From: a virus
IMG/VR virus record: IMGVR_UViG_3300036768_000752
Coordinates: 1-34,766 of that record
Reading direction: 5' to 3' (one strand)
Length of the DNA: 34,766 nt
The translations under genes and the position numbers were made by a program. The notes below the pieces were generated by a model. The model was not told where the DNA came from and searched no databases. It saw nothing but the letters and a program-made list of their open reading frames with translations. Of this stretch, positions 3,140 to 34,548 are shown piece by piece (the stretch's first letter is position 1; the number at the start of each line of letters is the position of its first letter).

Positions 3140-3424
3140 ATGCTAGACAAAGTTGTATGGTTCAGCATCCGCCCACTCTGTGAGCCGGCTGCTTGGCGAA
3201 AAGCGCTTGGAGCACTGCTACGCAGCCGGAGAACGTCGCTCGGACTGACTGCGTCCGAGGTGGCGGCTTTGGTGGGTACCTCGGACGCCCAGGTGTACCG
3301 GTGGGAGGCTGGGACTGTGGCTCCGTCCGTCTTGCACATGCTGCGGCTTGCTGAGCTGCTCCAGCTCCAGCTCACCGACCTGCCGTCCCCGTGGGGCGAT
3401 GGCCATGTACGTCAAGCTCTTTGA
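3140..3424 (+). CDS. XRE-family helix-turn-helix regulator
   Basis: 94 residues. A helix-turn-helix of the Cro/CI type spans about residues 24-78: LGALLRSRRTSLGLTASEVAALVG, then TSDAQVYRWEAGTVAPS. It has no extra dimerisation or protease domain, so it resembles a Cro-type repressor or an early-region autoregulator more than a full CI. It has a strong AGGAGGGG ribosome site. The downstream replication gene begins 26 bases inside its 3' end, so the two are translationally linked. No divergent promoter with a facing repressor gene is present, so a classical lysogeny switch cannot be claimed. Confidence 0.85.
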   Translation: MLDKVVWFSIRPLCEPAAWRKALGALLRSRRTSLGLTASEVAALVGTSDAQVYRWEAGTVAPSVLHMLRLAELLQLQLTDLPSPWGDGHVRQAL

Positions 3425-6866: not shown

Positions 6867-7250
6867 ATGGGCTTGGGCACTCGAATCAAGCTGGCAGTTC
6901 CGGCCTACAAGTCGAAGCTTGAGGAAGCGTGGGCGCTCGAGCTGGAAAAGCTCCGCGCTGCCGGTGAAGTGGTCCTGTGGCGATACGAGGCGATGGCACT
7001 GCGAATCGGCCCGGACTGCGTCTGGTGGCCCGACTTCGTGGCGCTCCGACGCGACGGGCAGATGGTGGTCTACGAGGTGAAGGGGCGACGGCGTGACGAT
7101 GGAATGGCCAAGCTGAAGGTGGCTGCTCAGCAATGGCCGGAGCTGCGGGTGTACCTAGTGACGCGGGATGGAGGCTCGCGTGGCGCGTGGAAGGTCGAGC
7201 AAGTGGTGCCGCACGGCATGGCCTGGCCCCCTGGGAGACTGGAGCGGTAA
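6867..7250 (+). CDS. DUF1064-type PD-(D/E)XK nuclease (Holliday-junction-resolvase-like)
   Basis: 127 residues. It begins with YKSKLEEAWALELEKL (the family's SK-E helix), followed by VLWRYEAMALRI, WWPDFVAL (catalytic Asp) and MVVYEVKGRRR (Glu-x-Lys motif), then a Lys-containing helix. This order and length match DUF1064 proteins of phages, predicted endonucleases related to archaeal-type resolvases. Likely role: branch resolution or DNA processing before packaging. The ribosome site is moderate (TGGAGGAACG). Its 3' end overlaps the next gene by about 70 bases. Confidence 0.8.
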   Translation: MGLGTRIKLAVPAYKSKLEEAWALELEKLRAAGEVVLWRYEAMALRIGPDCVWWPDFVALRRDGQMVVYEVKGRRRDDGMAKLKVAAQQWPELRVYLVTRDGGSRGAWKVEQVVPHGMAWPPGRLER

Positions 7251-8007
7251 GCGGTACTGGCTGCGGGACCCAGCGTTGCTTGCCGTGCTCGGTCCCTGGG
7301 ACGCTGCGGCCCCACTTCGGCGCCGGCGGTGGCTGCTGCGCGCGTGGCTAAAAAGGGCCGCGACCTCCAGGCTGTGGACCGTCCGAAAGGCCGCGGCGTA
7401 CTTCGCCGGGGTCTCGCGGCGCGAGGTTGCTGCCATGCTGGGGATGTCAGAGCGGACGGTCAAGCGGTGGATGCTCGGGCATGACGTTCCTGGCGGGGAG
7501 CGGGTGGAGGAGGCGCTGGTGGAGATGGCGTCCGAGGAGCTCGACGGACACGTTGACCTACTTCGAGCTGGCATCGTAGGCAGCACGATGGCCCCGCTGC
7601 TGAGCTTGACGGCGGTCTACGGTCTTTCGGAGCGGCGAAGTCTAGCGGTCGCGGTCATGGGGGAGCGGGAGTACAAGCGTCTCACGTCGGGGAAGCACAG
7701 TCCGAAGCTGCCAGTCTTGCGGACAGTACGCGACATCCTGGGCCTGCCAGTGTGCCGACTGGTCACGACGGTCTACGACCTTCCCGTCGGCGTGGCGGCT
7801 GCGGCGTTCGCATGCGGGCTGCTGACCGAACGTGAGGCGGCGGGCTTCCTTGGGGTTGACGTGGAGTGGCTGCAGAGGAAGCGGGAGGCGGGCCATGGAC
7901 CCGCCTGGGTCGGCACGCCGACAGGGCCGAAGTACTGGGCAGGCGACGTGCTGCGATGGGTGCGGGCGCGCACTATAAGCCTTGACAAAAGCGACATGCA
8001 GGGTTAG
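7180..8007 (+). CDS. Two-domain DNA-binding protein (HTH plus MerR/excisionase-like HTH)
   Basis: 275 residues from GTG 7180, chosen because GGAGG sits 5 bases upstream; ATG 7168 would add four residues. A first helix-turn-helix lies near residue 80-100 (SRREVAAMLGMSERTVKRWMLG). The C-terminal 50 residues (LLTEREAAGFLGVDVEWLQRKREAG ... YWAGDVLRWVRAR) look like a MerR/excisionase winged helix. The middle is helical. Probable role: transcriptional regulator at the early/late boundary, since the gene ends exactly where a TTGACA promoter begins. No activator domain is recognised. It could alternatively be a terminase-like or partition DNA-binding factor. Confidence 0.6.
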   Translation: MARGRSSKWCRTAWPGPLGDWSGKRYWLRDPALLAVLGPWDAAAPLRRRRWLLRAWLKRAATSRLWTVRKAAAYFAGVSRREVAAMLGMSERTVKRWMLGHDVPGGERVEEALVEMASEELDGHVDLLRAGIVGSTMAPLLSLTAVYGLSERRSLAVAVMGEREYKRLTSGKHSPKLPVLRTVRDILGLPVCRLVTTVYDLPVGVAAAAFACGLLTEREAAGFLGVDVEWLQRKREAGHGPAWVGTPTGPKYWAGDVLRWVRARTISLDKSDMQG

Positions 8008-8694: not shown

Positions 8695-8713
8695 TGTGTC
8701 CCGGGAGGGCCGT

Positions 8714-9322
8714 ATGGAGGTCCGAGTCCTGGGATTACAGTATGTGAAGCGTGAAGACCTCGTGCCGATGGCGCGGAACGTCCGGCGCCACGGCTCGGTC
8801 CAGCGTCGGCGGTTCCGGGGCCTGCTAGAGCGCTTCGGCTTCGCTGGAGCGCTGCTTGGGGCGAGGCGGGCGGATGGAAAGGTCCAAATCCTTGATGGCC
8901 ACATGCGCCTCGAGGAGGCGGCCCTTGAGGAGTATCCCGTCGTGCTTGTGGACCTCCCAGAGAGCGACTGGGCGGAGTTCTCGGCCGCGGTTGACCGCAT
9001 TACGGCACAAGCCGACTGTGACAACGACGCGCTAGCGGAGATGTACGAGCAGATGAGCGACGCCGTCAAGGCCCTGTTCAGCGAACTGGAGGCGCGGTGC
9101 GCTGAGCTGGCGAAGTCGGAGAAGCCGAAGTACGAGTTGGTGCCGGAGTGGGATGAACACTATGACGCTGTGCTCGTGTTTTGCAGGACGCAGGCTGAGT
9201 GGGCCTGGCTGCAGACGGTCTTGGGCCTGGAGAGGCGGGAGGACCGCTGGGGAAACGTGGGCATCACGCGGGTGATTACCTGCCCGGAGTTCAAGGCGAA
9301 GTGGGAGGCTCGCGGTGCCTGA
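8714..9322 (+). CDS. ParB/sulfiredoxin-fold protein
   Basis: 202 residues from ATG 8714 (GGGAGGG 5 bases upstream; a GTG at 8696 is less likely). The ParB N-terminal-type domain is seen in LVPMARNVRRHG, FGFAGALLGARRADGKVQILDGHMRLEEAALE and YPVVLVDLPE. GHMRLEEA corresponds to the GxxR box that binds CTP or has nuclease/phosphotransfer roles in related proteins. The second half is helical and lacks the ParB centromere-binding HTH, so plasmid partition is unlikely. Phage members often lie beside DNA-modification or terminase genes, as here. It overlaps the following gene by 8 bases. Confidence 0.75.
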   Translation: MEVRVLGLQYVKREDLVPMARNVRRHGSVQRRRFRGLLERFGFAGALLGARRADGKVQILDGHMRLEEAALEEYPVVLVDLPESDWAEFSAAVDRITAQADCDNDALAEMYEQMSDAVKALFSELEARCAELAKSEKPKYELVPEWDEHYDAVLVFCRTQAEWAWLQTVLGLERREDRWGNVGITRVITCPEFKAKWEARGA

Positions 9323-10112
9323 TGCGAAGGTGAAGATCGTGGTGGTGTCCCACAAGCGCTGGGACACCATCAGCACCCACCGGATAGTGGCCGTGGACTG
9401 CGTGTGCGTGCCGAAAAGCCAGGCCCCGCTGTACCGCGAGCGGCTTGGGGACACGGTGGAGGTGGTGGAGCGGCCGGATGAAGTGCGCGGGGTCTGGAGC
9501 ACAAGAAGCTGGGTGATGCGGCACTTTGGTGGCGTCTTCATGTTAGACGACGATTTGCAGCGCATGGTACGGCTGTGGAACCGCGAGAAGAACTCCCGCA
9601 GCATGCAGCTGTCACCCACGGAGGCGCGGAACGTCATTCTTTCCTCGGCAGACACGTGCAAAGAGCTAGGCGCCTACCTGTACGGGTATCTGCCGTTCAC
9701 CTCCTTTGTTGCGTCGCCGCACCTGCGGCCTTTTGGATTTGTCGGGACCATCATGGGCGGAGCGATGGGCATCTTGCCGGGGTCGCGCCTGTACCTGCCG
9801 GAGGGGCTTTTCTGCTCAGGCGAGGACGCGTGGCTGTGCCTGCTGAATGCCTTCTATCACCGGTACTGCTGGATTGACAAGCGATTCGGCGTGGCTTTCG
9901 CGAAAAGTGGAGCAAACCCGGGCGGGCACATGGAGTTCCGAGGTCTTGGTGATGGAGAAAACGATGGAGCGAAGCTGCTACGCGAGGCGTTCGGCAACGC
10001 GGTGCAGCTGCACTTCGGCGGGAAGTTTCCGGATGCGAAGGTGTGCGGCCGCAACCCGCGGCGGTATACCAAGTTCATCAGGTGGCGGCTGAAGATTCCT
10101 TGGGGGGCGTAG
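9315..10112 (+). CDS. GT-A-fold glycosyltransferase-like protein (TAGT-like)
   Basis: 265 residues from GTG 9315. The N-terminal strand KIVVVSHKR, then ERPDEVRGVWSTRSWVMRHF and the acidic triplet FMLDDDLQRM (Asp78-80), fit a GT-A nucleotide-sugar fold with a DxD metal motif. Later GTIMGGAMGIL and CSGEDAWLCLL fit acceptor-site and catalytic-acid positions. This pattern recalls TAGT proteins, glycosyltransferases predicted to modify hypermodified phage DNA bases and often found with ParB-fold genes. No TET/JBP oxygenase or base-modifying gene is visible here, so the acceptor is unknown; a protein acceptor is possible. Confidence 0.65.
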   Translation: MPDAKVKIVVVSHKRWDTISTHRIVAVDCVCVPKSQAPLYRERLGDTVEVVERPDEVRGVWSTRSWVMRHFGGVFMLDDDLQRMVRLWNREKNSRSMQLSPTEARNVILSSADTCKELGAYLYGYLPFTSFVASPHLRPFGFVGTIMGGAMGILPGSRLYLPEGLFCSGEDAWLCLLNAFYHRYCWIDKRFGVAFAKSGANPGGHMEFRGLGDGENDGAKLLREAFGNAVQLHFGGKFPDAKVCGRNPRRYTKFIRWRLKIPWGA

Positions 10113-28466: not shown

Positions 28467-28516
28467 GGCCCTACGTCCCGGTGGGGCCTAGCAGCGAGCC
28501 CCCGTCTCGGGGGCTC
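28467..28516 (+). terminator. Double hairpin at end of late operon
   Basis: AGGCCC.../...GGGCCT (about 28467-28489) is followed by GAGCCCCC-GTCT-CGGGGGCTC (28496-28516), then TTGCGTCTCC. Strong stems but a poor U tract; likely marks the end of the late transcript. Confidence 0.55.
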
Positions 28517-28662
28517 TTGCGTCTCCTGCTTGCGGTGGCCTCCGACCTCGCCAAGCGCTTGCTCCGCAGGCTGATGTCAACATAGTCTCTCAGCGTCAAA
28601 GCACAGACAATCTTGTCTCGCGGCTCTAGGCGCATTACCACCGCGTCGAAAGCCGAAGTGTC
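28517..28662 (+). other. Non-coding interval, part of the 335-base gap 28437-28771
   Basis: Between the late-operon hairpins and the conserved promoter block I see no convincing + strand gene. Local base composition is less GC-rich than elsewhere. A 72-codon minus-strand frame (TTG start at 28689) is discussed under rejected items. The 11-mer GTCGAAAGCCG at the downstream end recurs upstream of the second promoter block. Confidence 0.4.
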
Positions 28663-28746
28663 GCATTTTGCATCCCAATGAGCTGACAAAAAAGTGCACT
28701 AGCACCGTACCAAATGGCATGATGAAAGTGGCACGCATATTGCTCT
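28663..28746 (+). promoter_or_regulatory. Conserved 84-base block with sigma-54-type promoter, copy 1
   Basis: Gapless match to 31344-31427. The block opens with GCATTTTGCATC, continues with GAGCTGAC-A-AAAAGTGCA, then 30 variable bases, and ends in TGGCACG-N4-TTGCT at 28729-28744 (GG and GC separated by exactly 10 bases). Transcription would start near 28755, just before AAAGGAGG and the ATG at 28772. The GCATTTT/AAAAGTGC arms could be an activator site. Sigma-54 use is inference from the motif. Confidence 0.7.
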
Positions 28747-28771
28747 ACACTATGGTGGAAAGGAGGTTGCT

Positions 28772-28978
28772 ATGGTGGTTGAAAGGATGAGGACGGCCGA
28801 AGGGATGAGGTACGGGGTTCGTTTCGGCCGGGCATTCGTTGTTGTCGAGGTGCCCGACTTCGGGCCGCTCCGAGCCACCGTCCCGGACGGCTACAAGGCA
28901 AGCAAGAAGGCTGTCGCGGCGGCGGTCCGCGAGGTCCGCCGCCTGCAGGAGACGATTCGGAGGCAGCGGGGATGGTAA
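28772..28978 (+). CDS. Small accessory protein, first cassette of the right arm
   Basis: 68 residues with AAAGGAGG 5 bases before ATG 28772. Strands MRYGVRFGRAFVVVEVPDFG and LRATVP lead to a basic helix KASKKAVAAAVREVRRLQETIRRQRGW. The strand pair plus Ala/Lys helix resembles the other small arm proteins in style, without clear homology. It follows the sigma-54-type promoter, and its TAA stop lies in the loop of a strong terminator, so it seems to be a single-gene transcription unit. Function unknown. Confidence 0.65.
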   Translation: MVVERMRTAEGMRYGVRFGRAFVVVEVPDFGPLRATVPDGYKASKKAVAAAVREVRRLQETIRRQRGW

Positions 28979-28995
28979 GTCCCCGCTGCTTTTTT
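28963..28995 (+). terminator. Intrinsic terminator with stop codon in its loop
   Basis: A perfect 10-base-pair stem (GCAGCGGGGA / TCCCCGCTGC) with loop TGGTAAG, which contains the TAA stop of the upstream gene, followed by TTTTTT (28990-28995). Confidence 0.85.
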
Positions 28996-29040
28996 GCCCC
29001 CAGCCGCGATGCCGGCGCGGCTGGCAAGGTGGACCGGAAG

Positions 29041-29082
29041 CCGGCATGGGCCCAGCCCTGGGGGAGAAGCCAGGGCAAGGAG
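29041..29082 (+). promoter_or_regulatory. Octaloop hairpin leader 4
   Basis: CCGGCA, 8 bases, then stem GCCCTGG (29055-29061), loop GGGAGAAG (29062-29069), CCAGGGC (29070-29076), then AAGGAG and ATG 29089. The T-A pair replaces C-G pairs of other members, evidence for a paired stem. Confidence 0.7.
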
Positions 29083-29088
29083 TGCGGT

Positions 29089-29463
29089 ATGGAGCGCTTC
29101 GAGCGCCTGTTGGAGTCGCTGGTCACCCCCCGGCGCCGGTCGCTCAGCGGTGACCTCCACGCTTCCTTCGGCTGGGCGCAGGAGGCCGTGCGCCTGGCCG
29201 AGGAGAGCCACCTGTTCATGGAGCGGGAGCTGTCGCTCCTGCGCGCGGCCGAGGCGCAGGTGCGGCACGTGACCGCCTACGACCTGGCCTACGGCGAGGG
29301 GGTGTACCCCCTGCCGTGGGCGGCTGAGGTGTTCCGCCGCGCCGCCAAGGTGGTGGGCGCGTTTCTGTACTGCAGGGGAGACGAGGAGGCTGGCCTCCTC
29401 GCCCGCGCCCGCCTCGTGGCGATGGCGGCGGGTGAGGATGCTTACAAGAGGGGCTACTGCTAG
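29089..29463 (+). CDS. Accessory helical protein, unknown
   Basis: 124 residues, predicted mostly helical: ERFERLLESLVTPRRRS, GWAQEAVRLAEESHLFMERELSLLRAAEAQVRHV and WAAEVFRRAAKVVGAFLYCRGDEEAGLLARARLVAMAAGED. No motif is recognised and no membrane segment is convincing. It is flanked by an octaloop leader in front and a long terminator whose apex loop is the stop codon, so it is an independent cassette. The start ATG 29089 follows AAGGAG by 6 bases. Confidence 0.65.
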   Translation: MERFERLLESLVTPRRRSLSGDLHASFGWAQEAVRLAEESHLFMERELSLLRAAEAQVRHVTAYDLAYGEGVYPLPWAAEVFRRAAKVVGAFLYCRGDEEAGLLARARLVAMAAGEDAYKRGYC

Positions 29464-29483
29464 GCAGTGGCCCCTCTCTTTTT
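29447..29483 (+). terminator. Intrinsic terminator whose 3-base loop is the stop codon
   Basis: A 14-pair stem (29447-29460 with 29464-29477, one G-T pair) closes on the loop TAG, the stop codon at 29461-29463. CTTTTT follows. The last four or five codons of the gene form one arm. Confidence 0.9.
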
Positions 29484-29527
29484 GCCACCCGCCGCCAAGC
29501 CGGGGTGGCGGGGCAGGCGAACAGAAG

Positions 29528-29568
29528 CCGGCAAGACCCCGGCCCCGGGGGTAAACGGGGCAAGGAGG
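29528..29568 (+). promoter_or_regulatory. Octaloop hairpin leader 5
   Basis: CCGGCA (29528-29533), 8 bases, stem GCCCCG (29542-29547), loop GGGGTAAA (29548-29555), CGGGGC (29556-29561), then AAGGAGG and ATG 29574. Confidence 0.7.
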
Positions 29569-29573
29569 GAACG

Positions 29574-30101
29574 ATGGAGTTCACGGTTCACGAGGTCGGA
29601 TACCCAGAGTTCGAGGAGGTTGTTGAGGCCGACAGTCCCAGCGAGGCGGCGGAGCTGGTGGCCGCCTGCGACTGGGAGCCAGGCGACCGCACCTACTGGG
29701 TGCGGTTCATTGTCGAGGACCCCGGCGGGAGGCGCCGGTGGCGCGTCACCGTGCCGGTGCACCCCGAGGAGCCCGACTGCCCGGGGGGCGGGCACGAGTG
29801 GTGCTCGCCTGTCGAGGTTGTGGGCGGGCTCAAGGAGAACCCCGGCGTCTGGGCCCACGGCGCCGGGGTGGTGTACCGGGAGGTATGCCGGCATTGCGGC
29901 TGGTACCGCATCACCGACACCTGGGCCCAGGACCCAGATACGGGGGAGGAGGGCCTGGAGTCGGTGGCGTACGAGGAGCCGGACGAGGCGTCGCTCGCCT
30001 GGGTGCGGCGCCTGCGCGGCGAGGAGGAGGAGGATGATGAGCCGGTTGATGAGGAGTGGCCGCCTGACGAAGGTCCAGGCGGCTGGTATGGGTCCATCTA
30101 G
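29574..30101 (+). CDS. Accessory protein with zinc-like HEWC...CRHC site and acidic tail
   Basis: 175 residues. It begins with strands EFTVHEVGYPEFEEVVEADSPSEAAELVAAC, where the ADSPSEAA turn resembles the small early proteins at 4830 and 5056. A metal-site candidate is formed by CPGGGHEWC and, about 35 residues later, VCRHCGWYRI. The C-terminal 30 residues are strongly acidic (EEEEDDEPVDEEW) and may mimic DNA charge or be disordered. AAGGAGGG precedes ATG 29574. Function unknown; an anti-restriction-type role from the acidity would be pure speculation. Confidence 0.65.
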   Translation: MEFTVHEVGYPEFEEVVEADSPSEAAELVAACDWEPGDRTYWVRFIVEDPGGRRRWRVTVPVHPEEPDCPGGGHEWCSPVEVVGGLKENPGVWAHGAGVVYREVCRHCGWYRITDTWAQDPDTGEEGLESVAYEEPDEASLAWVRRLRGEEEEDDEPVDEEWPPDEGPGGWYGSI

Positions 30102-30111
30102 GGAGGCGGCA

Positions 30112-30438
30112 ATGATGGAGCCTCTTACGCCACGTCGCGAGTTCTTCTGGAGAGTGTACCAGCTCCGTGTGTACGCCCAAGGGGGCTGGTGGAGATGTGC
30201 GGAGGACGGCGTCGCCAAGCTAGGCGATGTCGCCATCCGCCTCGGACTGGATTACTGCCGCGCAGTGAGGGAGATGGCCAGTGCCCTCAAGCGCGGTGAC
30301 AAGCGCCGCTTCGCCAAGCTGGCCGAGCTGTGGTACCGCCAGCTCGGATGGAGCGATGAAGACCTGGCCGCCATGTTCATGCGTGACCGCCGGGACGCCT
30401 GGCGGTCCTACGTCGAGTCGGAAGGAGGTAAGCGATGA
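30112..30438 (+). CDS. Accessory helical protein, unknown
   Basis: 108 residues from ATG 30112 after GGGAGGCGG. It is helical and basic, rich in Trp and Arg: REFFWRVYQLRVYAQGGWWRCAEDG, LGLDYCRAVREMASALKRGDKRRFAKLAELWYRQLGW and a C-terminal MRDRRDAWRSYVESEGG. No helix-turn-helix can be firmly assigned, although the charge would fit nucleic-acid binding. It overlaps the following gene by 4 bases, and both lack an octaloop leader, forming a small operon with 30435 and 30981. Confidence 0.6.
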   Translation: MMEPLTPRREFFWRVYQLRVYAQGGWWRCAEDGVAKLGDVAIRLGLDYCRAVREMASALKRGDKRRFAKLAELWYRQLGWSDEDLAAMFMRDRRDAWRSYVESEGGKR

Positions 30439-30977
30439 AAGCCAAGAGGTATTACTACCGGTGTGGCGACTGCCTGAGCACGGTTGTGCTTGAGGAAAGG
30501 CTTTTCGAGGTGGAGTGCATCTGCGGAGGCGAGCTCGAGTACTTGGGCCCGGTCACCGATACCGGGCACTGGAAAAAGGTGGAGGAGAAATCCCCCTGCG
30601 ACGGCCGTTGCACCGGCGCGCGCGGCTGGAAGTGCGACTGCGTCTGTGGGGGAGAGAACCACGGCACCAAGCTCGTGGTGACCGTGGAGCGCATCGGTGG
30701 CGTGGCACGCGTCAGACCGCCAGACCAGGACGCCATCCGCCGCGCCGAGGAGTACCGCGCGGCGCGCCAGGAGGTGAAGGACGCGCTAGCGCGTGTGTTC
30801 GGCGAGGACTACAGGCGCTTCGTGGAGCGGCGTTGGGTTCAGTCGAGAACCGCTTGGGAGAGCATGTGGGCCGTGAAGCGGGAGATGAAAGCCATCGCCC
30901 GCCTGGCCACCCATGCAACGAGAATCCGCCGGCTCCGCGAGCTTGCGGAGCGCGTGTCGAAGCTCAAGGGGAGGTGA
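30435..30977 (+). CDS. Cysteine-rich zinc protein with C-x-C-x-C-GG-HG signature
   Basis: 180 residues. An N-terminal ribbon uses Cys10, Cys13, Cys28 and Cys30. A second cluster uses Cys55, Cys59, Cys67, Cys69, Cys71 and the following GGENHG. The second signature is widespread in uncharacterised phage and plasmid proteins. The C-terminal 90 residues are basic helices (AEEYRAARQEVKDALARVFG, RRLRELAERVSKLKGR), likely for nucleic-acid contact. Ribosome site GGAGGTAAGCG. Function unknown. Confidence 0.65.
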   Translation: MKAKRYYYRCGDCLSTVVLEERLFEVECICGGELEYLGPVTDTGHWKKVEEKSPCDGRCTGARGWKCDCVCGGENHGTKLVVTVERIGGVARVRPPDQDAIRRAEEYRAARQEVKDALARVFGEDYRRFVERRWVQSRTAWESMWAVKREMKAIARLATHATRIRRLRELAERVSKLKGR

Positions 30978-30980
30978 GCC

Positions 30981-31244
30981 ATGTGGTACGTCGCCACCTA
31001 TGAGGACGTGTCAGTCAACGGCGGGCCAGTGGAGGTTGGGTCGTTCCCGACCCAGCGCGAGGCACGGCGGGCTCTTGCCGAGCGCCTCGGCCTGCCGAAC
31101 CTTCGTGGGCTCAAGCGAGTGCGGACGGCATCGGGAGCGACCGGGTGGTTTCACCCAGCTACCGGCCTCGTGGTCTACGTGACCACGCGCGCCGAGGAGC
31201 GGTATGTGCTCCGGCTCCCCGCGGTCTGGCAAGCGCCCAGGTAG
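30981..31244 (+). CDS. Small accessory protein D, paralog of 743-988
   Basis: 87 residues with GGGGAGGTGAGCC upstream. It shares with the left-end protein the order VGSFPTQREARRALAERLG (strand, then Ala/Arg helix), a linker, and GWFHPATGLVVYV, with similar lengths. Identity is low, so the two diverged long ago. Unlike D' it has no octaloop leader and is the last gene of a three-gene run that ends at a strong terminator. Function unknown. Confidence 0.65.
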   Translation: MWYVATYEDVSVNGGPVEVGSFPTQREARRALAERLGLPNLRGLKRVRTASGATGWFHPATGLVVYVTTRAEERYVLRLPAVWQAPR

Positions 31245-31272
31245 GGAGTGTGCGATGCCAAAAAAGTCGAAA

Positions 31273-31320
31273 GCCGCTTCCGGGGAGACAACGATGCCCC
31301 ACCCCGGAAGCGGCCTTTCT
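31273..31320 (+). terminator. Intrinsic terminator
   Basis: A 13-base-pair stem (GCCGCTTCCGGGG at 31273-31285 with its complement at 31302-31314) with a 16-base loop and the tail CTTTCTTTC. It ends the 30112-31244 operon and insulates the second promoter block. Confidence 0.85.
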
Positions 31321-31343
31321 TTCACGCTACAAGTTCCACGGTT

Positions 31344-31427
31344 GCATTTTGCATCGCAAAGAGCTGACGAAAAAGTGCATTTCGGCAAGCATAAAAGCCA
31401 TGGCGAACATGGCACGCATTTTGCTCT
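31344..31427 (+). promoter_or_regulatory. Conserved 84-base block with sigma-54-type promoter, copy 2
   Basis: Same layout as 28663-28746: GCATTTTGCATC, GAGCTGAC, AAAAAGTGCA, 30 variable bases, then TGGCACG-N4-TTGCT at 31410-31425 with GG and GC 10 bases apart. The expected start is near 31436, about 12 bases before ATG 31448, with GGAGGGAG between. TTTGC-ATC-GCAAA forms a small dyad in this copy. Confidence 0.7.
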
Positions 31428-31447: not shown

Positions 31448-32590
31448 ATGATGGCCAACCGAAAGCCCAACAGCCCCGCCGCAGAGGCGGGGAAGTTCGC
31501 CCCGGCGGCTGGGCTGGCCACCCGGCAAGCCGTGGCTTTTTGCGTGCCCGAGGGCTGGCGGGTCTTCGAGGCTCGCGCCGTTGACGGGCGCGCCGTCCGG
31601 TGGGTAGCGCCTGCCGTGAGCGGCGGGCGGACCCTTGTCCGTTGGCTTGGGGCCTACGGCAAGGGTCCGTCGCTGGCGGCGGCGCTGGATTGGGAGCTCG
31701 GTCCGGTGAGCCGGTCCCGCTCCGCTGCCATCCCCCGCGACGGCTGCGGCCCGCTCGGAGGCGTGGGCCTGTTGCTTGACCCCGCCCGGGCGCACCTGGC
31801 GAGGGCGGTCCCGCGGGACTGCTGGGCCCAGGACGTGGAGGGGGCGTACGTCCCCACCAGGTTCCGCCGGACCCAGACGCGGTCCTGGCGGGTGGCCTTC
31901 GCGTGGGCCGGTGACGGGCCGGCGGACGAGCCTTGGGGCCCGGGCCGGTACGTGGAGACCCTGGTCGGCTTCGGCCGCGAGGCCGTGGTGGCCATCGTGG
32001 TAGCCACCGATAAGGTCCGGCCGGAGGTCGAGGCCGCTGGCCTGCCGGTGGTGCGCTGGGCGGAAATCCGCCCAATGGCGCGCGGCTTGGAGGCGCCCGA
32101 GCCGGAGGGGCCGGCCGATGAACCGGCGGGGCAGGTGCCGCACGTGCCCCGCGGCTGGGTGTTCGCTGCCTTCAATGGCGACTGGCGCAAGGTCGGGGTC
32201 TGGGCGCCAGAGCTCGCCGGAGAATGCGAGGGCGGCTGGTTCCGCGGCGACTGGCCGCCAGGCTACCGCACCTGCCGCCGGCATGCGGCTGGCAAGGTGT
32301 TCATGGCACGGAGCATTGAGCAGGCGCGGGCCGCAATCCGCCGGCTGCTCAGGCGCGACGGGTGGCGTGGCGCGGACATCGGGGCCTGGCCGCTTCCGTT
32401 GCCATTCGAGGCGGCCTGGGCGCTGGACCACCGGGTGGCGAAGGAGTGCGACGCCATCCTCGATGAGGCGCGCCTGCGCTTCCGCGACGCCACCGCGGCA
32501 GCCAAGTACGCGGCGCACGCGCTTGCCTCCTTGCTCGAGGCGGCAGGCGCGTACGCCGCTGCTGGCGGGAGAGGAGGTCGCCATGACTAG
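31448..32590 (+). CDS. Largest accessory-arm protein, unknown
   Basis: 380 residues from ATG 31448 (ATG 31451 possible), with GGAGGGAG before it. Two similar-looking halves may exist: an N-terminal part with EGWRVFEARAVDGRAVRWVAP and GLLLDPARAHLARAVPRDCWAQ, and a second part with PRGWVFAAFNGDWRKVGVWAPE and CRRHAAGKVFMARSIEQARAAIRRLLRRDGW. The C-terminus is a long Ala-rich helix (DATAAAKYAAHALASLLEAAGAYAAAGG). Scattered Trp, Arg and Cys residues do not form a known motif. It is the first gene after the second sigma-54-type promoter. Function unknown. Confidence 0.65.
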   Translation: MMANRKPNSPAAEAGKFAPAAGLATRQAVAFCVPEGWRVFEARAVDGRAVRWVAPAVSGGRTLVRWLGAYGKGPSLAAALDWELGPVSRSRSAAIPRDGCGPLGGVGLLLDPARAHLARAVPRDCWAQDVEGAYVPTRFRRTQTRSWRVAFAWAGDGPADEPWGPGRYVETLVGFGREAVVAIVVATDKVRPEVEAAGLPVVRWAEIRPMARGLEAPEPEGPADEPAGQVPHVPRGWVFAAFNGDWRKVGVWAPELAGECEGGWFRGDWPPGYRTCRRHAAGKVFMARSIEQARAAIRRLLRRDGWRGADIGAWPLPLPFEAAWALDHRVAKECDAILDEARLRFRDATAAAKYAAHALASLLEAAGAYAAAGGRGGRHD

Positions 32591-32915: not shown

Positions 32916-33755
32916 ATGAAAGAGTTTACGTGGACGCAAGAGTTGGCGCCGCGCTCGCGGGCGGCATGGCTGGTGTTCTTCAAGGACGGGGAAGCCAGGC
33001 CGTTCGAAGGCCGGGACATCCCCGGCTGGTGCGTGGTCCGCGAGAGGCAGTCGGGGCCACGCAGGGGGAAGTGGACCCCCACTATCTGGAGGCTGGTCCT
33101 GGCGGACAGTGTCCTGGCCGTAGCCGGGCACTACGGCTGGAACACTGGCGACTTCCCTGAGGGCCTGTGGTCGGCGCTCGGGAAGCGTGGGTCAATCCCA
33201 GCCTCATGGGCTGAATGGGCCGCCCTCCTGGCCGGCACAGTCGGGGTCCCGGCTGAGGAGGCAAGGGCGCTCCTGCGGGCGATGGACCCGGAGGTGGCGG
33301 CCCGGTGGGACCGCGCCGAGGAGAAAATCCGCGAGCTCCTCGGCGGCGGCGAAGCATCAACCGGGCCGGCCCAGGCGCAGCTCCATCCGTCCGCCGAGCG
33401 GAACCGGAGTCTCCTGCACGAGGCGCTACCTGCGGTGCAGTCAGCGAGCCGCACCATCGTCACAGTGGAGGTCCGACCAAGGCGGTTTGGGGGCGATTAC
33501 GACGCCCCGCTGGAGGTAGTGCTCGATGGGGAGGTAGTTGCCCGCGTGGTCCCGTTGCCACCAGGTCCGAACGCGGCGGAGCCGAATGAGGTCTGGTGGG
33601 CGGCTGCGCGGGCGACTGGCGCCGCCAGCTTCGCCGCAGGCCCGGCCATTGGGCAATACGGGTTCGTCTGGTTCAAGCTGGAGGTGCCGGCTGGCGCCGA
33701 ACTCCGCCACCCGGCGCTGCGCCAGATGTCGAGCGCGTACGTGATTGAGGGCTGA
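32916..33755 (+). CDS. Accessory protein A (complete copy)
   Basis: 279 residues with AGGGAGGAG before ATG 32916. The N-terminal 80 residues contain strands and aromatics (AAWLVFFKDGEARPFEG, WTPTIWRLVLADSVLAVAGHYGWNTGDFP). The middle is helical (AEWAALLAGTVGVPAEEARALLRAMDPEVAARWDRAEEKIRELLGGG). The C-terminal 90 residues are nearly identical to the frame at the left end. No known family. The segment from about residue 190 on is the part shared between both window ends. The next gene follows after 10 bases, as on the left. Confidence 0.7.
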   Translation: MKEFTWTQELAPRSRAAWLVFFKDGEARPFEGRDIPGWCVVRERQSGPRRGKWTPTIWRLVLADSVLAVAGHYGWNTGDFPEGLWSALGKRGSIPASWAEWAALLAGTVGVPAEEARALLRAMDPEVAARWDRAEEKIRELLGGGEASTGPAQAQLHPSAERNRSLLHEALPAVQSASRTIVTVEVRPRRFGGDYDAPLEVVLDGEVVARVVPLPPGPNAAEPNEVWWAAARATGAASFAAGPAIGQYGFVWFKLEVPAGAELRHPALRQMSSAYVIEG

Positions 33756-34119
33756 ACCGGGCGCGATGGAGGATGGCACGACTCTACGCGATTACATCCA
33801 CAGCATGAAGCAAGGGTGGTGGCTCTACCACCCTTACCGGGCGATACAGATTGGCCTGCGGCTTGAGGGTATGGCCGCTGAGCTTGGCCTTGACCTCGGC
33901 CGGCATGTGGAGGTGGAGTTCCGGAGGGGCACACATGGCTCCGGTCCGGATACCAGGTACTGGTACGAGTGGCGGGTGAGGGGCGTCACTCTCCCCGCCA
34001 CGACCTCTGCGTGGCGCCTTGCGCCTTCAGATGCGGACCGAATCTTCAACTGCAAGGAAAGCGGCCTACCGTTCATCGCGCCAACAGAAGATGGGTTGGT
34101 GGCTGGCTTCGCGTGGTAA
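33482..34119 (+). repeat. Right copy of diverged A-B duplication
   Basis: Aligns gaplessly with 1-638. After it, the right copy goes directly through one leader to gene C, whereas the left copy has a hairpin, a leader and gene D' before C', making the left copy 327 bases longer between B and C. Confidence 0.9.
33766..34119 (+). CDS. Accessory protein B, paralog of 285-638
   Basis: 117 residues from ATG 33766 (TTG 33745 is an alternative overlapping the A stop). It keeps LRDYIHSMKQGWWLYHPYRA, the PDTRYWYEWRV core and the final VAGFAW of the left copy, with substitutions spread along the chain and no frameshift. The pattern of mostly amino-acid-tolerant changes suggests both copies are under selection. 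Family and function are not recognised. Confidence 0.7.
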   Translation: MEDGTTLRDYIHSMKQGWWLYHPYRAIQIGLRLEGMAAELGLDLGRHVEVEFRRGTHGSGPDTRYWYEWRVRGVTLPATTSAWRLAPSDADRIFNCKESGLPFIAPTEDGLVAGFAW

Positions 34120-34127
34120 GCGGCCCG

Positions 34128-34156
34128 GCTCCGGGGGCTAAGCCGGAGCAAGGAGG
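34128..34156 (+). promoter_or_regulatory. Octaloop hairpin leader 7
   Basis: Stem GCTCCGG (34128-34134), loop GGGCTAAG (34135-34142), CCGGAGC (34143-34149), then directly AAGGAGG and ATG 34162. The stem sequence differs from leader 2, which precedes the paralogous gene C', while pairing is kept. Confidence 0.75.
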
Positions 34157-34161
34157 TGAAC

Positions 34162-34548
34162 ATGGCTGTATGGGTGCTGAACGCGTTAGTGCCACCGGAG
34201 GGCGGGGGCACGATGGTCGTGTGGCCACCGCTTGGCTTAGACCAGCCCAAGGCGCTCTCGGCAGCAAAGGCGGCTGCGAAGGAAGCCGCTGCGGCCGGGA
34301 GGTGCCTGATTGGGCACCCCCAAACGGCAGCGCTGCTAGGCGTTGCCCCGTCTCGCGGGGAGGCGAAGCCGACCGCTGGGGATGTGGCGTACGTGGTGCG
34401 GCTTCGGAGACGCGCGGCTGCGCCTGGCGACGTGGACGTGACCCCTGGCGACCTGGAACTGCTCATGGTGCACTACGAGCTGCTGCCACCAGCCACGTCA
34501 GAAAACCAGCAGCCGCGGCTAAACTCGGCAGGAACGGAGGCCAAGTGA
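34162..34548 (+). CDS. Accessory protein C, paralog of 1008-1337
   Basis: 128 residues with AAGGAGG before ATG 34162. The first 105 residues are about 95% identical to C' at the left end, including MAVWVLNALVPPE and the Ala/Lys helix. The C-terminal 20 residues (PPATSENQQPRLNSAGTEAK) are unique to this copy and look disordered; in C' the corresponding place holds the stop and the operator-like palindrome. It overlaps the following gene by 4 bases. Function unknown. Confidence 0.7.
   Translation: MAVWVLNALVPPEGGGTMVVWPPLGLDQPKALSAAKAAAKEAAAAGRCLIGHPQTAALLGVAPSRGEAKPTAGDVAYVVRLRRRAAAPGDVDVTPGDLELLMVHYELLPPATSENQQPRLNSAGTEAK

Follow-up and report, generated by a model that had tools for sequence, protein, structure and literature searches.

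Sigma-54 promoters usually serve bacterial stress and nutrient genes, and they stay silent without an activator that reads the physiology of the host. In phages, such promoters are as such not new: the record of Pseudomonas phage YuA (NC_010116) already annotates three promoters as 'high activity (2000 MU), -24/-12 consensus sequence'. Allowing up to 2 mismatches to TTGGCACGN4TTGCT with GG/GC kept, we did not find a near-consensus core on the coding strand of these annotated promoters. Phages under host regulators include LexA-controlled prophages, phi29 with Spo0A and CtrA-controlled phages of Alphaproteobacteria (PMC9437464). A systematic report on phage sigma-54 promoters was not found in the open literature, subscription papers being outside the scope of the search. 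A Pectobacterium phage case was set aside, as it concerns a weak putative phage sigma-54-like protein, not promoters.

Source record and gene content

The window, that is, the whole stretch of DNA analysed here, comprises 34,766 bases (66% GC) of IMG/VR virus record IMGVR_UViG_3300036768_000752, an unclassified phage with its main genes on the + strand. The main phage modules were all found. Recognized families are a terminase, a Mu-like portal, F and protease set, a capsid-E-like protein, a TAGT glycosyltransferase, a Cas4-type exonuclease and HTH regulators; there are no tRNAs and no Rfam families. The lysis side and the recombination/replication side are separated by orphan genes, among which both blocks described below are located. 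Two of the proteins are phage-encoded HTH regulators:

3140-3424, XRE-type protein
7168-8007, HTH protein

The contig was called linear and lacks end repeats, and the record may be incomplete, with genes missing. Diverged duplicates carrying the same small genes lie at opposite contig ends (1-640 / 33482-34119 and 989-1288 / 34143-34442), with 96% and 89% identity over the 300-nt stretches compared. They suggest a tandem duplication of a gene block, perhaps in a circularly permuted genome cut inside the duplication. At 8696-10112 a ParB-like/DNA-methyltransferase-associated protein adjoins a TET-associated glycosyltransferase (PF20691), a pairing that may mean that the phage hypermodifies its DNA bases. 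A GC-rich leader, GCCGGCA..CCCCGGGG-NAAN-CGGGG-N-GGAGG-AACGATGG, is repeated before at least five window genes and possibly is a hairpin translation or attenuation element:

687-746, 972-1011, 1370-1409, 29032-29088 and 29519-29577, copies of the GC-rich leader (also at 200-302 in the relative L006)

Two copies of a promoter-like block

The two 84-bp blocks (28663-28746 and 31344-31427) form a gap-free alignment, as the earlier note had it; the offset between them is 2681 bp throughout, and 63/84 positions are identical. The note's partition into a conserved upstream element and a variable 30-base middle was likewise borne out, and the parts are as follows:

28660..28698, + strand, upstream element copy 1, putative activator site (GTCGCATTTTGCATCCCAATGAGCTGACAAAAAAGTGCA; 35/39 identical to copy 2)
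28699..28728, + strand, spacer 1 (length constant, sequence diverged, 13/30)
28729..28744, + strand, core 1, sigma-54-type -24/-12 (TGGCACG-CATA-TTGCT, exact consensus; predicted start ~28755)
31341..31379, + strand, upstream element copy 2 (half-sites TGCATTTT / AAAGTGCA, 7/8 inverted)
31380..31409, + strand, spacer 2 (length equal to spacer 1)
31410..31425, + strand, core 2, sigma-54-type -24/-12 (TGGCACG-CATT-TTGCT, exact consensus; predicted start ~31436)

Identity is 15/16 in the core and 14/27 in the leader. The flanks are close to background, with 27/60 identical before the element and 17/60 after the ATG. Element and core together differ from the spacer in identity with Fisher P = 3.5e-6. 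A duplicated cassette with a drifted spacer but with element, core and all distances preserved carries the footprint of a regulatory site.

TGGCACG-N4-TTGCT (TGGCACGNNNNTTGCW) matches at 28729 and 31410 and nowhere else in the window on either strand. Both copies fit TGGCAC-N5-TTGC exactly, with GG and GC exactly 10 bases apart, and neither has T or C at the weakly conserved -27 position. The exact core is expected by chance ~0 times (0 in 60 third-order Markov simulations), though both cores are copies of a single cassette and so do not count as two independent chance events. The putative activator element, 39 bp long and 35/39 conserved, stands at a constant short distance from the core; copy 1 contains imperfect inverted half-sites GCATTTT / AAAGTGC, 28-29 bp apart. 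We did not find a third copy, since elsewhere in the window the 39-bp element is matched at 21/39 positions at best, and we know of no activator site or consensus that matches it.

Placement and downstream genes

The features surrounding the two blocks are:

28485..28525, + strand, strong GC hairpin (28495-28520; -30.8 kcal/mol fold; poor T tail) that follows the last gene of the lysis side and lies upstream of block 1, a possible terminator
28772..28978, + strand, 68-aa orphan gene right behind promoter 1
28960..28995, + strand, intrinsic terminator right where the 68-aa gene ends (GCAGCGGGGA..TCCCCGCTGC TTTTTT; -25.9 kcal/mol fold)
29089..29463, + strand, 124-aa orphan ORF, then a terminator at 29447-29482
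29574..31244, + strand, four co-directional ORFs (29574-30101, 30112-30438, 30435-30977, which is phrog_6842-like, and 30981-31244)
31274..31321, + strand, terminator directly upstream of block 2 (hairpin 31274-31316; GCCGCTTCCGGGG..CCCCGGAAGCGGC TTTCTTTC tail; -31.5 kcal/mol fold)
31448..32590, + strand, 380-aa orphan gene right behind promoter 2

Both cores are in non-coding positions, with a hairpin upstream and a plausible leader and a gene behind. Leaders of 12-17 bases with ribosome sites are predicted here as in the earlier note: 17 nt from ~28755 to the ATG at 28772, with AAGGAGG, and 12 nt from ~31436 to the ATG at 31448, with GGAGGG. We searched for relatives of the 68-aa and 380-aa proteins and found none. 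The 68-aa protein gave a confident small beta-beta-beta-beta-alpha model (pLDDT 88) without a significant structural match, and structure prediction for the 380-aa protein gave no usable model (pLDDT 37). Because terminators end the 68-aa gene and follow the 124-aa gene, promoter 1 may produce a one-gene message, serving the 68-aa gene alone barring read-through.

The layout had been read in the earlier note as a sigma-54 promoter with an upstream activator site controlling an arm of accessory genes. The putative promoters are well supported by sequence, placement, conservation pattern and other phages. The downstream genes have not been established as an 'accessory arm': they are orphans, and terminators follow the first and the second of them.

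We propose, with a probability of about 0.74, that each block acts as a promoter dependent on sigma-54 (RpoN), shares an upstream activator site with the other and answers to a host activator. In brief, host sigma-54 polymerase would bind the -24/-12 core as a closed complex, and a host enhancer-binding protein, on its usual signal, would bind the ~39-bp element ~55-95 bp upstream of the predicted start and open the complex. The 68-aa and 380-aa genes, plus anything escaping the terminators behind them, would be made only while the host signal is on. Both promoters would be co-regulated because the upstream site is common to both.

It is unlikely that the blocks are instead promoters served by an ordinary sigma of the host, or controlled by a phage regulator such as the XRE or HTH protein binding the 39-bp element, with the -24/-12 match a coincidence. 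The phage does encode HTH regulators, the element does contain imperfect inverted half-sites, and the sigma-70 consensus varies in non-model hosts. Against this stand the near-zero expectation for the exact core and its recurrence in unrelated phages. We also found no -35/-10 pair at a constant place common to both blocks, and a simple scan found no sigma-70-type site in 26.5-34.8 kb.

Searches for the block and its relatives

The search of phages and bacterial genomes for the block that the earlier note proposed gave no match in viral contigs, phages, plasmids or 84,980 GTDB genomes. The exact element is absent from IMG/VR viral contigs, blastn of the block against phages and plasmids returned chance-level matches only, and the element with TGGCAC has no match in the GTDB genomes. 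So far a single phage is known to carry the cassette. By terminase and by capsid alike there is one near relative (L006/L016), and its record stops before the block region. The block, having no phage match, does not place the phage with the YuA type (Mesyanzhinovviridae), and there are no YuA-like phages among the best 20 matches of the window terminase (~28-33% identity).

A pattern scan returned several candidates that were rejected: L001 and L002-L003, AT-rich phages that have sigma-54-like cores but not the window element, and L004/L005, where the matches are chance-like. In L002 (2200-2440) and L003 (6600-6850), several GTAAGT-NNAATAAAAACAANGACTTA repeats occur, with the sigma-54-like core TTGGCACG-ATTT-TTGCA at the repeat end.

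Sigma-54-type sites in other IMG/VR phages

A perfect sigma-54 core followed by AGGAGG at 10-40 nt occurs in 21 IMG/VR contigs, versus 5 when the spacing is increased by one (binomial P = 0.0012). Because the 21 seed records were selected for the pattern, independent evidence comes solely from this spacing control, from the extra sites and from the placement. Their virus status is IMG/VR's call, with a phrog_2 terminase in 6/21. The seed records contain 48 TGGCACN5TTGCW sites, and the reversed pattern, taken as a control, occurs once. Within a record nearly all sites lie on the same strand, and some records have 3-5 of them on one strand; ten unseeded phage records (483 kb in total) have none. 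When the array of L030 described below is excluded, a ribosome site and open frame stand behind 7 of the 9 non-seed sites, versus 11% of random places.

L038 is unrelated to the window. Upstream of two of its promoters, GCAGATTGCAC recurs at -108 and AGGAACCACAGG at -47 without any shift in register; of 1891 random pairs, 0 were as similar in the same register. L038 thus repeats the window design in a different text. This twin design and the spacing survey go beyond the earlier note.

Several further arrangements were observed. L033 and L038 (G015 and G020), seemingly the same kind of phage and not mutually independent, have five sigma-54-type promoters within ~7 kb with a gene behind each, and the start-region text TATAGG-GTAGAACGCAA is common to several of them:

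873, 2080, 2858, 6589 and 7644, sigma-54-type sites of L038

L035 (G017) has three sigma-54-type cores, at 9780, 10141 and 10778, each between a gene end and the next gene start; a shared upstream element is absent. L030 (IMGVR_UViG_3300033149_004421) carries tandem sigma-54-like arrays of TTTGGCAC-N5-TTTGCT at 1041-1237 and 1796-1868, with seven copies 18-53 bp apart and then three 27-28 bp apart. The array elements are mostly without a gene start behind, and one promoter-like site, at 560, lies just upstream of terminase-like genes. The arrangement may be a decoy array or a multi-start promoter.

Activator, sigma-54 and host

The earlier note saw no sigma-54 activator gene, and we confirm that the activator domain PF00158 is missing from the window at E<=1. 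Sigma-54 itself (sigma-54 AID, PF00309) was not found there either, so the record gives no sign of a self-encoded sigma-54 system. We infer a host activator because the window record encodes neither protein, and a host RpoN is likewise assumed; expression of some window genes probably awaits a signal from the host. Control genomes of Thermus/Deinococcus and an actinobacterium are without sigma-54, and such a host would lack it. The window proteins match those of mixed Gram-negative phages, indicating no single host, and the window terminase was not found in the 84,980 GTDB genomes.

The sigma-54 promoters could alternatively be under a phage-encoded activator beyond the recovered contig, which is linear without end repeats and may lack genes. 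We regard this as quite improbable: the main phage modules are all present, and PF00158 is found in none of the 21 other phage records with sigma-54 sites, which also lack sigma-54 (PF04552).

We consider it very improbable that the repeat serves replication, packaging or recombination instead of being a promoter. It is duplicated intergenic DNA in a contig with gene duplications at its ends, but in both copies the distances to a consensus promoter core and to the gene starts are kept, on the same strand and after terminator hairpins.

It is scarcely credible that the cores are decoys or roadblocks titrating host sigma-54 polymerase in inactive closed complexes instead of expressing genes, as the ten -24/-12-like elements of L030, mostly with no gene start behind, might suggest, because the window has two copies only, each exactly in front of a gene with its ribosome site, and a conserved activator-like element would be needless for a decoy.

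Comparison with known systems

On the reading of the blocks as sigma-54 promoters under a host activator, a phage that has such promoters and no activator places some of its genes in effect under a host sensor. The survey suggests that reliance on sigma-54 promoters without an own activator is recurrent in uncultured phages. We tentatively speculate that phages without an activator, from many unrelated lineages, rely on private sigma-54 cassettes (shared element plus -24/-12 core) to make chosen genes conditional on a host enhancer-binding protein and hence on nutrient or stress state. Each activator element would be a concrete handle for tracing the host sensor used.

The window resembles phage YuA in being from a tailed phage with -24/-12 promoters. 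Those of YuA are in the structural-gene region, and the YuA record notes no activator site for them, whereas the window combines an exact core with a duplicated upstream element. With bacterial promoters of the NtrC/PspF/NorR type the blocks share TGGCAC-N5-TTGC, the GG-GC spacing, an upstream site less than ~100 bp from the start and a gene directly behind; unlike these, the window pair is phage-borne, consists of two copies that would be co-regulated, and has no cognate activator in the record. The phages under LexA, Spo0A and CtrA are alike in that sites for host master regulators in phage promoters tie infection to host state. Those regulators are DNA-binding proteins acting at ordinary promoters, whereas the window phage would borrow the whole sigma-54/activator route.
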